DNA of 64,000 bases from Streptomyces sp. NBC_00539 (GTDB taxonomy: Bacteria > Actinomycetota > Actinomycetes > Streptomycetales > Streptomycetaceae): NCBI RefSeq assembly GCF_036346105.1, contig NZ_CP107811.1:2424501-2488500 (forward strand). Reading direction: 5' to 3'. The notes under the pieces are model-generated. The model saw nothing but the letters and a program-made list of their open reading frames with translations, did not search any database and was not told the origin of the DNA. Below are positions 14,094 through 17,372 of the stretch, one piece after another; the first letter of the stretch is position 1; every line of letters starts with the position of its first letter. A program made the translations under genes and the position numbers.

Positions 14094-14165
14094 GCCCCCG
14101 TAGCTCAGGGGATAGAGCAACGGCCTCCGGAGCCGTGTGCGCAGGTTCGAATCCTGCCGGGGGCA
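14094..14165 (+). tRNA. tRNA-Arg (anticodon CCG)
   Basis: A complete cloverleaf can be drawn. The acceptor GCCCCCG pairs with CGGGGGC; the D-arm is GCTC...GAGC. The anticodon stem ACGGC/GCCGT encloses loop CTCCGGA with anticodon CCG, and the T-arm is GCAGG-TTCGAAT-CCTGC. The discriminator is A and the 3' CCA is not encoded. It reads the CGG arginine codon. A strong terminator follows, and an accessory methyltransferase/nuclease cassette begins about 200 bp downstream. Confidence 0.97.
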
Positions 14166-14176
14166 CCTTAGGTGCC

Positions 14177-14361: not shown

Positions 14362-15999
14362 CTAGAGGGGCACCGAGGAGCGGTTGCGGTCGAGGCGCCG
14401 CTTCTGCAACTCCGTGCGCGCTTCGGCCAAGAGGCCGAGGGTCGAGTCCGAGATCTCCGGGATCCGCTTGGCCAACTGCCCGTCGGTTTCGCGGATCAAG
14501 ACCTCCTCGACATCGCCGGAGGCGGAACGCGAAATCCGGTCCAGCCGGTCCAGTTCCTCGCTCATCGACGGGTGCGCCATGACCCGCAGTCGCGCCACCT
14601 CGCTGGGGACCAGTTCCAGCACCCCACCGCCGAAGCTCCTGCCCTCGATCTCCGCGGACAGCAGGGTCAGCGAGTTGTGGAAGGAGGCGGCGAACGAACG
14701 CGCCGGCATCGCCTCCGGCGCCAGCATCTTCCCCTGGTAGATGGTGTCCGTGGTGATGGCCGACACTTCGTTGACCACGACTCGGGGGTAGAGGTGGGAC
14801 CTCTTCGAAAGGAGCAGGTCTCCGGCCGCCACCACCGGCACGCAGTACCAGGGTTCGCGAATCCTGCACTTGTACCGCGTGTGCAGCTCGGCCTGCTCTC
14901 CCGCGTGGATGTAGCGCAGGGCGCCGTCGTGCCCGAGCGGGCTGGATTCCCCGCGCGAGAAGTCGATCAGGCCGGCGCGAGCGCCTTCGTCGACGTTCCT
15001 CTCATGGTCTTCGGGGGTGAAGACCAGGCCTTCGGCATTCCGGATCCTCGGCAGCAAGGGGAGGATCCACCCTTCGAGGCCGTACTGTTCGATCGTTTCG
15101 CGGTCGACGGAGAAGTAGTCGTTGGCGCCGGTGACGGTCGCGACCCCGAAGCGGACCCAGCTTCCCGCACTCCGTACGCAGGACAGCGAGGAAACCTCGT
15201 CGAGGGCCTCCAACTGCGCGGGGGAAAGGAGATAACGGGTCCAGGTGGGCGCGTCCGGGGAGGCCGAGTGATGCCAGGCACGCCCGGCGGCGCTGTGGTC
15301 CCACACCGTCAACCGGGCATCGGCGGCCGAAGGTTCCCGGCGGCCGCTGAGGACGACCACTTCCTGGAGGACGCCGGGAAAGGAACCCGGACCGAACAGG
15401 TCGACGCGAACGGAAGAGCAGTTGCGCAGCAGCCACCGCCGCACGGCCCCGGCCGAAATTCCCGTGAGGCATTCAGCCGGGATGATGAAGGCGAAAGCGC
15501 CCCCTTCGCGCACCTTGTTCAGAGCGCAGAGGAAGATGGGAATCCACAGGTTGGAAACCCCCTTGAGGGTCACTCCCATACCCGTCGCGACCTGGTCGGC
15601 ATAGCTCCGTTCCGTGTCGCTGACGAATTGGAACCGGACGAAGGGCGGATTTCCCACCGCCGCGTCGAATCCTTCTTCGGGGACCAGGTCGGGGTCGAGG
15701 AAACTCCCGTGCCTGATGTCCGTCTCGAACGGAGCCCGACCGCCGGCCTCCTCGCAGCGCCGCGCTTCCGTCTCCAGGAGTTCGACGGCCACCAGGTCCC
15801 GGACCCGCTTACCCAGGGGGTCGGCGTCGAGACCGCGGATGAAGGCACCGTCACCCGCGCTGGGTTCGAGCAGACGCAGGGAGTCCAGGGAGTCGGGCAG
15901 CAGGTCGCGCAGCCGGTCGAGGCACACGGCGACCAGGGCCTGAGGCGAGTAGAACCCGCCGCGCAGCTTGTCGGCGGACACCTGTTGCATGGTCTTCAC
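14362..15999 (-). CDS. N6-adenine DNA methyltransferase, gamma class (restriction-modification)
   Basis: This 545-aa SAM-dependent DNA methyltransferase should protect host DNA at the site cut by the divergent nuclease gene. Motif X-like RGGFYSP is at residues 13-19, motif I LEPSAGDGAF at 44-53, and catalytic motif IV NPPF at 117-120. This X-I-IV order and NPPF are those of M.TaqI/Eco57I-type N6-adenine enzymes. The C-terminal half (about 270-545) looks like a target-recognition domain, with TRYKCRIREPWYCVP and TDTIYQGK. There is no endonuclease domain in this chain. The start is GTG with a GGAGG site. Codon usage is less GC-biased than in neighbours, suggesting transfer. Confidence 0.85.
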   Translation of the reverse strand: MKTMQQVSADKLRGGFYSPQALVAVCLDRLRDLLPDSLDSLRLLEPSAGDGAFIRGLDADPLGKRVRDLVAVELLETEARRCEEAGGRAPFETDIRHGSFLDPDLVPEEGFDAAVGNPPFVRFQFVSDTERSYADQVATGMGVTLKGVSNLWIPIFLCALNKVREGGAFAFIIPAECLTGISAGAVRRWLLRNCSSVRVDLFGPGSFPGVLQEVVVLSGRREPSAADARLTVWDHSAAGRAWHHSASPDAPTWTRYLLSPAQLEALDEVSSLSCVRSAGSWVRFGVATVTGANDYFSVDRETIEQYGLEGWILPLLPRIRNAEGLVFTPEDHERNVDEGARAGLIDFSRGESSPLGHDGALRYIHAGEQAELHTRYKCRIREPWYCVPVVAAGDLLLSKRSHLYPRVVVNEVSAITTDTIYQGKMLAPEAMPARSFAASFHNSLTLLSAEIEGRSFGGGVLELVPSEVARLRVMAHPSMSEELDRLDRISRSASGDVEEVLIRETDGQLAKRIPEISDSTLGLLAEARTELQKRRLDRNRSSVPL

Positions 16000-16130
16000 G
16001 TGTGCTGTGCCCTCCAGGCGTCGGTCGATCGCCAGTCGAGTCTAGAGGCTGGGACAGACAGAAGGGACCAGCCGTAATAAGTCGGAATCCCGCTTGCCAC
16101 CCGGAGCCGCTTACGGCACGGTGATCATCC
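16000..16130. promoter_or_regulatory. Divergent promoter region of the methyltransferase/nuclease pair
   Basis: This 131-bp gap separates divergent starts and is AT-richer than its surroundings. A minus-strand TAGACT at 16044-16039 fits a -10 box for the methyltransferase, and TAATAA lies near 16075. No controller (C) protein gene or clear C-box is present. Confidence 0.4.
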
Positions 16131-17372
16131 ATGCGAATCAGTCTCGTGGGCCAGCCGTATGCAAGCTCGCCGAATCTTCACCAGTTCCTGGCCTCCCGCT
16201 GCGCAGATGACAGGTATGCCGAATTGCGCATGGCAACGGCCTGGGCGAAACAGAGCGGACTCTCGCGGGTGGAGGGCGACTTCCGCGCCTTCCGCGATCG
16301 GGGAAACAAGATCACGGCAGTGGTGGGCATCAGCGAGGGTGGCGCCACCCGTCAGGGACTTCACCTGGTGCACAAAATCTGCGATGCGTCCTACGTATTC
16401 CACGAAACGGGTCGCACGTTCCACCCCAAAATCTACTTCTTCACCGGCGCCGACGACTGGTCCGTGTTCATCGGGTCGAACAACCTCACCGCCGGTGGCG
16501 TCTTCTGGAACTACGAAGCCGCCGTCGAGATCTCCGGATCCTTCGCCTCACCGGATGACGTGGCACTCGCCGGTCAGTTCACCGCCCTCTTCGACCAGCT
16601 CCTCGAAGACAGCGATGTCTGCAAGCCCCTTGACGACGCCTTGATCAAGCTGCTGATCGAGTCCCCCGTCTTCCGGATCGGTGACGAGATCCGCATGGCC
16701 GGACGGCAACGGTCCGGGGCCACCCGCACCGAAGGGGGTGAGCCGGTCTTCGGCCGGTCCCGGCACCCCAAGACGGCCGATCCGGGAAAGCCCGCAAAGA
16801 CCGGAAAGATCGGAAAGAAGGGATCGGCCGGCCCTCCACAGGACCTCCTCGACCATGTGGACGGTCTCGACCAGGTGGACGGGGTCGACGTCGTGGACGA
16901 TCAGCCGGCCACGCCGTCGGAGCTGCTGAGCCATTCCTGGTGCAAGAAGATGTCGGCCAGCGATGCCCAACGGCCTCCGAAGGCGGAGACCAAAATCACC
17001 GGGAACCTCAAGCTTTCGCGGGCGCAGCATCCCATCGACCAGAAGACCTACTTCCGCAAGGTCTTCTTCGGGGACGCGCAGTGGGTGGCGAAGGAGACCT
17101 CCAGAGGAGTGCAGGAGAAGGCCAAAGTGCCGTTCGAAGTCTTCGTCGGCACGAAGCCCTTGGGTGTGTACGAAGTCGTCATCGATCACGCCGATTTCCG
17201 GATCGCGGGCCAGGACAACGTTCCGACCTGGCTCCACTGGGGAAAGGAACTGACGGCGTACCTGAAAGCCCACGACCACACGGGGCACTACGTCACGCTC
17301 GAGACCTTCGAGGACGGCTCGCGGCGCCTCACCCTTTCCGCGGACCCGATCGGGGAGATCAAGGTGAGCTGA
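16131..17372 (+). CDS. PLD-superfamily nuclease, BfiI/NgoFVII-like restriction endonuclease
   Basis: This 413-aa protein probably cuts DNA without metal ions. The N-terminal domain (about 1-185) carries one PLD/HKD active site: H98-P-K100, N118 in IGSNNLTAGG, and E129. PLD restriction enzymes use one such set per subunit and dimerise. A low-complexity linker (about 200-262, Lys/Gly- then Val/Asp-rich) leads to a C-terminal domain (about 263-413; SHSWCKKMSASDAQ, VPTWLHWGKEL) likely to read the DNA target. It diverges from the methyltransferase gene, which supports a Type II R-M pair. A PLD nuclease with another target, or a solitary defence protein, remains possible. Confidence 0.75.
   Translation: MRISLVGQPYASSPNLHQFLASRCADDRYAELRMATAWAKQSGLSRVEGDFRAFRDRGNKITAVVGISEGGATRQGLHLVHKICDASYVFHETGRTFHPKIYFFTGADDWSVFIGSNNLTAGGVFWNYEAAVEISGSFASPDDVALAGQFTALFDQLLEDSDVCKPLDDALIKLLIESPVFRIGDEIRMAGRQRSGATRTEGGEPVFGRSRHPKTADPGKPAKTGKIGKKGSAGPPQDLLDHVDGLDQVDGVDVVDDQPATPSELLSHSWCKKMSASDAQRPPKAETKITGNLKLSRAQHPIDQKTYFRKVFFGDAQWVAKETSRGVQEKAKVPFEVFVGTKPLGVYEVVIDHADFRIAGQDNVPTWLHWGKELTAYLKAHDHTGHYVTLETFEDGSRRLTLSADPIGEIKVS

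Follow-up and report, generated by a model that had tools for sequence, protein, structure and literature searches.

BfiI, which cuts DNA without metal ions, is the best-studied restriction enzyme of the phospholipase D (PLD) family, and few others have been studied in detail. Its recognition domain is a B3 domain (PMC4081073), and the system has two methyltransferases (MTases), one per strand (PMC4267653). CglI and NgoAVII, which target GCCGC, have a PLD-B3 R protein accompanied by a 5-methylcytosine (m5C) MTase and a helicase/ATPase gene (PMC4267653). CTGAAG is the site of Eco57I, AcuI and Cac824II, all Type IIG enzymes (PMC4736252). The specificity of M.Eco57I is degenerate (CTNNAG), and the enzyme modifies the asymmetric site CTGAAG on both strands by methylation (PMC3874165). 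Here, we describe a two-gene cassette in a 64,000-nucleotide stretch of the genome of Streptomyces sp. NBC_00539 (positions 2,424,501-2,488,500 of contig 1; host genome of 7.5 Mb), hereafter the window. It encodes a nuclease with a PLD head and a B3-like tail next to a lone M.Eco57I-type MTase, and we consider it quite probable that the two form a Type II restriction-modification (R-M) system with CTGAAG as its predicted target.

The cassette resembles each of the described systems in part. It shares with BfiI/BmrI (Type IIS, ACTGGG) the HxK-N-E spacing of the active site, the C-terminal position of a B3-like domain and the lack of an ATPase partner. However, BfiI/BmrI have two MTases, whereas a single predicted gamma-class N6-methyladenine (m6A) MTase is present here; the B3-like domain of the window also lacks a sequence match to solved chains, and its predicted target is CTGAAG. 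Eco57I (Type IIG, CTGAAG 16/14, with a separate M), AcuI and Cac824II have the same MTase family (PF22837) and the same site as that predicted here. Yet Eco57I-type systems use a fused restriction-methylation enzyme of about 1000 aa, and the cassette has a PLD-B3 nuclease instead; no second Eco57I-type PF07669 protein was found in the host at E <= 0.01, and the tested neighbours are unrelated. The PLD-B3 R protein of CglI/NgoAVII also recurs here, but neither their m5C MTase nor their helicase/ATPase gene was found among the tested neighbours. Neither SauUSI, an ATP-dependent and modification-dependent enzyme, nor DISARM, the multigene system with helicases that includes DrmC, has the two-gene make-up of the cassette.

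The predicted modification gene (14362-15999, minus strand) has a GTG start and encodes 545 aa. Its product matches PF22837 (M_Eco57I_C, E 1.7e-37) and PF07669 (Eco57I, E 7.9e-9), and the PADLOC profile MTase_II PDLC03267 covers residues 4-538 (E 9.2e-110). In the translation, the stretch LEPSAGDGAF (residues 44-53; 15841-15870, minus strand), which we take to be the S-adenosylmethionine-binding motif I, lies ahead of the catalytic motif IV, NPPF (residues 117-120; 15640-15651, minus strand), presumably the gamma order. Residues E45, P46, S47, G49 and F53 of the former and N117, P118 and P119 of the latter are invariant in the 10 MTases compared. The M.Eco57I C-terminal domain, which is the PF22837 stretch (residues 253-501; 14497-15243, minus strand), is presumed to recognize the target. 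Judged by these sequence matches, the protein is a gamma-class m6A MTase of the M.Eco57I family. In the host genome, it accounts for the single PF22837 match and for the single PF07669 match (the latter at E <= 0.01).

The second gene (16131-17372, plus strand, ATG start) encodes the predicted PLD-B3 restriction endonuclease of 413 aa. This protein matches PF13091 (PLDc_2, E 2.6e-6), and its match to RE_NgoFVII is below the cut-off (E 0.014). A profile of 38 aligned nuclease sequences matches BfiI (2c1l, E 1.5e-12) and R.NgoAVII (4rct, E 2.4e-5). The N-terminal PLD domain predicted from an AlphaFold2 model and Foldseek comprises about residues 1-190 (16131-16700, plus strand). Ten-residue blocks of the model up to residue 180 have a predicted local distance difference test (pLDDT) score of 84-98, and Foldseek aligns the model with 2c1l at E 3.6e-13. 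The active-site stretch H98-x-K100, N118 and E129 (16422-16517, plus strand) has the spacing (+2, +20, +31) of H105, K107, N125 and E136 in BfiI (PMC4081073). K, N and E are present in all 38 aligned sequences and H in 37 of them. The PLD domain is followed by a variable and probably disordered linker (about residues 190-266; 16701-16928, plus strand), with pLDDT below 50 at residues 190-202 and 230-263.

The C-terminal domain (residues 267-413; 16929-17369, plus strand) had no match in a sequence-only search against solved structures. It was modelled alone because the VIA list of the whole model was dominated by PLD chains. Foldseek E-values for the isolated domain are weak (best 6.7e-3), and the VIA ranking sets B3 structures apart from the rest. 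The titles of the RAV1, NGA1, TEM1, VAL1 and UbaLAI structures name B3 domains, and we assume that the ARF, FUS3, LEC2, VRN1, At1g16640, EcoRII and LlaJI structures are B3 domains too. The modelled tail is, by its fold, on which this assignment rests, a B3 recognition domain.

The tail and the MTase are strongly linked among relatives. Scanning 84,980 species genomes for the nuclease retrieved 163 relatives, the best 80 of which were kept, and a scan of viral sequences added seven. The window and 87 loci were examined; one locus (L132) had no nuclease open reading frame (ORF) by hidden Markov model (HMM) and was dropped, so that 87 were counted. The C-domain HMM and the MTase HMM were built from 10 sequences each, including the window and some of the counted loci, and an MTase scoring over 100 bits was called M.Eco57I-like; L048 and L049 give identical matches. 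The window-type C-domain is present in 41 of the 87 loci, and in 40 of these an M.Eco57I-like MTase adjoins the nuclease; the sole exception, L065, is cut by a contig edge. The other 46 loci have a different C-terminal part and no MTase above 100 bits, with weaker matches in L111 (25.3 bits) and L120 (38.5 bits). This association has a Fisher p of 4e-24, related loci being counted separately. The motif SPPY marks N4-methylcytosine MTases. An SPPY ORF of at least 220 aa was detected in 40 of the 46 C-domain-negative loci versus none of the 41 positive ones; six negatives have no SPPY ORF of this length. Five SPPY proteins sampled from four loci match N6_N4_Mtase (PF01555). Two SPPY ORFs are present in 23 of the negatives and one of 923-990 aa in 12, which is the pattern to be expected of BfiI-like systems, where each strand has its own MTase (PMC4267653). 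In one Clostridia metagenome-assembled genome (MAG), tandem PLD nuclease ORFs lie beside SPPY and NPPY ORFs (L058 3790-6194).

Gene order within the 41 C-domain-positive loci is convergent in 24, divergent in 10, same-strand in six and unknown in one. The divergent loci are actinobacterial in nine cases and a viral contig in the tenth. In a tree of MTase ORFs above 400 bits (46 rows, some on long branches; L049 omitted and L026 in place of L051, a run-on frame), the PLD-linked MTases enclose, with starred support, two that are Type IIG-linked (L016 and L019), and a third (L020) falls outside them on a long branch. The two enclosed MTases serve Eco57I-type enzymes of 997-998 aa on Acinetobacter and Escherichia coli plasmids. 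The placement in the tree therefore indicates that nucleases have been exchanged around the M.Eco57I-type MTase family. The nuclease head, the recognition tail and the MTase are thus modules that can be exchanged. In three further actinobacterial relatives of the MTase (L018, L021 and L028, from Pseudonocardia and Mycobacterium plasmids and genome G058), a protein of 245-336 aa follows; those in L018 and L028 have no Pfam match and possibly belong to an unrecognised nuclease family. Plasmid pROLI24 of Roseobacter litoralis (L017 3737-4831) has the same type of pair, with a full-length MTase and, directly beside an IS66 element, a nuclease from which the usual N-terminal start is missing.

These results bear on the preliminary description of the locus, made from the sequence alone, which had proposed a Type II R-M system of a gamma-class (NPPF) MTase and an HKD nuclease. 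The MTase class holds, given the PF22837 and PF07669 matches and the motif core invariant in 10 sequences. The nuclease does belong to the PLD family (PF13091) and has a BfiI-like modelled fold, but its active site has the HxK-N-E pattern of BfiI rather than the full HKD motif. The family matches, the BfiI-like fold with a B3-like domain and the conserved linkage all agree with a Type II system. The statement that PLD-type restriction enzymes are rare has to be abandoned: one scan alone gave 163 relatives, and a 2014 review calls them "far from rare" (PMC4081073).

Few Streptomyces genomes carry the cassette. The nuclease was detected in three of 393 (E <= 1e-10), namely the host and two others (G010 and G151), both of which have the same divergent pair, with 49-50% identity to the window MTase and 36-39% to the nuclease. 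The host is a close relative of Streptomyces cirratus, with about 91% DNA identity over the locus and its flanks. S. cirratus has the cassette at the same place, with an MTase 95% and a nuclease 84% identical. Between these two, the ratio of nonsynonymous to synonymous substitution rates (dN/dS) is about 0.09 for the MTase and about 0.25 for the nuclease; within the latter, it is about 0.12 in the PLD domain, 0.31 in the B3 domain and 0.45 in the linker, the fastest-evolving part. Both genes are under purifying selection. Their dS is higher (0.26-0.33) than in four neighbours (0.09-0.19); weaker codon bias may be the reason, or a history of their own. The shared promoter differs at 12 of 151 columns (15990-16140). 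Considering that the divergent pair recurs in other actinobacteria, that both genes are under purifying selection and that their shared promoter is conserved, the pair is more than a chance arrangement.

Avoidance of 6-bp R-M targets follows the taxonomic distribution of R-M systems (PMC10359461), and candidate sites were therefore counted in the host. Twelve candidates from the MTase and nuclease families, CTGAAG included (written as 16 entries, of which three were reverse complements and one a repeat), were counted alongside a blind six-mer scan. In 800 kb of the host, CTGAAG was found 84 times versus 216 expected from 5-mers (log2 -1.35). The carrier G010 gave 43 versus 86 (log2 -0.98), and three controls without the pair gave log2 values of -0.08, +0.08 and -0.02. 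When the host is compared with these controls, CTGAAG comes second in depletion among 1249 six-mer classes (z -8.9; the third class by z is at -5.0). The top class, CTCGAG, is depleted in the controls too. CTGAAG is the only strongly depleted non-palindrome in this list, and the next class, palindromic or not, differs by -0.40. The 18 words that differ from it by one base show no depletion relative to the controls (differences -0.25 to +0.78), and CTGAAG itself is scarce with each of the eight flanks (ratios 0.11-0.59); the avoided word therefore appears to be exactly six bases long.

Composition is not the cause of this depletion, since coding genes dodge CTGAAG synonymously. In host ORFs of at least 200 aa, Leu-Lys pairs are written CTG-AAG 25 times and CTC-AAG 259 times, and Leu-Asn pairs CTG-AAC 142 times and CTC-AAC 123 times (odds ratio 0.09). 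The same odds ratio is 0.33 in G010, 1.09, 1.78 and 1.76 in the controls, and 0.92 when 13 stretches from relatives are pooled, the controls G009 and G013 having contributed two. Genome-wide, CTGAAG was counted against the reversed word. The host (947/4892 = 0.194) and G010 (944/4068 = 0.232) rank first and second among the 393 Streptomyces genomes, whose 390 non-carriers have a mean ratio of 0.642 (standard deviation 0.066, minimum 0.381). Carriers differ from non-carriers with a Mann-Whitney p of 1.2e-5, kinship being ignored. The ratio is 0.186 in S. cirratus. PF22837 had no match in the five non-carriers with the lowest ratios. The depletion in the host, S. cirratus and one further carrier leads us to predict CTGAAG/CTTCAG as the target of the pair. 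G010 additionally shows strong avoidance of many palindromes, exceeding that in the three controls, for instance CTCGAG (8 versus 442 expected), GCATGC (8 versus 89), AGGCCT (22 versus 227), GGATCC (24 versus 150) and CTGCAG (22 versus 130).

Several observations weigh against this target. The third Streptomyces carrier, G151, is only 16th of 393 (ratio 0.518, z -1.9), and a Cellulomonas carrier (G418) is 13th of 60 in its genus and no outlier. No codon-pair effect was seen in 100-120 kb of the Rathayibacter and Microbacterium carriers; the Herbiconiux and Solirubrobacterales MAG carriers have ratios of 0.72, with genus controls absent. Distant carriers did not differ from SPPY-type relatives (25 versus 24 genomes, p 0.16) in a comparison that drew on 26 of the 41 positive loci, less L118, and on 24 of the 46 negative ones, and that is confounded by phylum. 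For carriers outside Streptomyces, our guess would be a recent arrival or another target. Ranked without controls, CTGAAG takes 7th place among 1467 classes in the host; in G010, it takes 21st place among 1285. Relative to the controls, it is 8th of 1148 in G010 by log ratio, with only palindromes in the seven classes above it, and 15th by z. CTCGAG, also of the form CTNNAG, is more depleted in the host than CTGAAG. It is depleted in all five sampled Streptomyces (G000, G012, G009, G013 and G010), most in the two carriers, and a specificity wider than CTGAAG is possible on this account. G010 encodes a further PF07669 protein, and G151 has a weak second match, so the footprint may have another source there. 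Since S. cirratus is the sister of the host and the two make one case, the footprint rests on two independent carriers. It supports the CTGAAG target indirectly.

The points above would suit a PLD-B3 Type II R-M system with a different target, the footprint having been left by another enzyme, present or past. The weak or missing footprint in G151, Cellulomonas and other carriers speaks for this, as do the MTases of the other two Streptomyces carriers, only 49-50% identical to that of the window, and G010 with its second PF07669 protein and its footprints at many palindromes. Nevertheless, no second PF07669 protein was found in the host or S. cirratus, nor a further PF22837 protein in any of the four Streptomyces carriers, two carriers rank first and second of 393, and the MTase family includes an enzyme known to modify CTGAAG (PMC3874165). 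We therefore regard a different target as unlikely. A regulatory or decayed nuclease, with the MTase in effect an orphan epigenetic enzyme, seems far less probable still. The nuclease does evolve faster than the MTase (dN/dS about 0.25 versus 0.09), and the related nuclease on pROLI24 lacks its N-terminal start next to a full-length MTase. However, its frame is open in the window, all catalytic residues are kept, the PLD domain has a dN/dS of about 0.12, and avoidance of CTGAAG implies cleavage pressure.

An ATP-dependent mechanism of the CglI/NgoAVII kind, in which the PLD-B3 protein would need a helicase partner encoded elsewhere, has R.NgoAVII in its favour, a clear relative of the nuclease in structure and sequence. 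R proteins of this type are inactive alone (PMC4267653). Yet the cassette has two genes only, no helicase/ATPase gene was found in it or among the tested neighbours, its MTase is of the m6A type and not m5C, and the pair recurs as two genes. A need for a helicase is therefore very doubtful.

We thus return to the two-gene system acting on CTGAAG. The domain make-up, linkage, module exchange and CTGAAG footprint are computed results, and the cassette is presumably active and the cause of the footprint. The nuclease would bind CTGAAG through its C-terminal B3 domain and probably cut nearby. A single PLD active site would be shared by a homodimer, independently of metal and ATP, and, as in BfiI, the two strands would be cut in turn by way of a covalent phosphohistidine. 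These steps are carried over from BfiI by analogy of fold and active-site identity. Given this architecture and an asymmetric target, cutting of the Type IIS kind would be expected. The lone MTase would protect the host, the modified base presumably being m6A on both strands; a degenerate CTNNAG specificity like that of M.Eco57I would explain why one MTase is enough where BfiI needs two. We also lean, if only slightly, towards a PLD-type isoschizomer of Eco57I, with a single lineage of CTGAAG MTases that act on both strands having served two unrelated cutters, a Type IIG fusion enzyme and a PLD-B3 dimer, while holding the specificity. With a single degenerate MTase (CTNNAG) fixing the target, the nucleases would be replaceable and different folds would converge.

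The two genes diverge from an intergenic promoter region of 131 bp (16000-16130), in which a simple consensus scan found no sigma-70 promoter or terminator; it contains a short imperfect palindrome (16019-16038). The gene for tRNA-Arg(CCG) (14094-14167, plus strand) and the end of the MTase gene are 194 bp apart. The cassette sits between this tRNA and a response regulator on one side and a phosphoribosyltransferase and XdhC on the other. These and the further neighbours tested (homoserine dehydrogenase, LysA-type decarboxylase, ArgS-like protein, DUF6479 and LigD polymerase) are ordinary chromosomal genes. The GC content is 67.4% in the MTase gene and 63.3% in the nuclease gene, with 73.3% in the window. 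At third codon positions (GC3), it is 0.859 and 0.824, respectively, and the six neighbour genes lie above both (0.928-0.968). The divergent layout over 131 bp, the tRNA about 200 bp away, the position between core genes and the less GC-rich codons had all been described correctly beforehand. Presence or absence among relatives had been named as a test, and the nuclease is found in three of 393 genomes, with a GC content below that of its neighbours.

The tRNA had also been suggested as an insertion point, which agrees with what is seen in relatives. Partial 3' copies of tRNA-Arg(CCG) are located 2.1-15.5 kb downstream of the intact gene in four of them (L030, L035, L042 and L045), and this tRNA looks like an integration site or insertion hot spot in Streptomyces relatives. 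However, insertion of the cassette at the tRNA would be no more than a possibility: no second copy of the 3' end was found in the window, with up to three mismatches allowed, or among the host matches listed, and S. cirratus has the cassette at the same place. For a tRNA island, the 3' duplicate, repeats around the cassette and occupied sites in relatives were checked, and no boundary could be drawn. The pair of G010 is about 1.4 Mb away from the tRNA-Arg locus. S. cirratus has an extra 1.3 kb between tRNA-Arg and the MTase gene, including a Beta_protein gene (PF14350, E 5.4e-57; L046 2038-3105) that the window lacks; small cargo genes thus come and go at this position. As for a phage origin, no phage record matches the nuclease at E <= 1e-5. 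Seven of 46 candidate viral stretches encode a nuclease relative, three with the window C-domain (L126, L130 and L131) and three without it; the seventh has no nuclease ORF by HMM.

PLD-type restriction enzymes were already known. Their pairing with an M.Eco57I-type MTase and the predicted isoschizomer are unreported among the literature matches listed: in open-access PMC text, these included neither a PLD nuclease with an M.Eco57I-type MTase nor a PLD enzyme for CTGAAG. A putative entry for the pair is likely catalogued in REBASE. From a widespread second PLD branch, in which the MTase is of the m6A type and the B3 domain is a different one, it can be seen which modules travel together, and PLD-B3 loci are natural chimaeras from which B3 specificity could be read. 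Should CTGAAG be the target, Eco57I and AcuI would have their site in common with an unrelated nuclease, and two folds reading one site could be compared directly. Genome-wide avoidance, set against that in hundreds of relatives, can reveal a candidate restriction target. For Streptomyces that carry the cassette, the system predicts plasmid sites that may block transformation.

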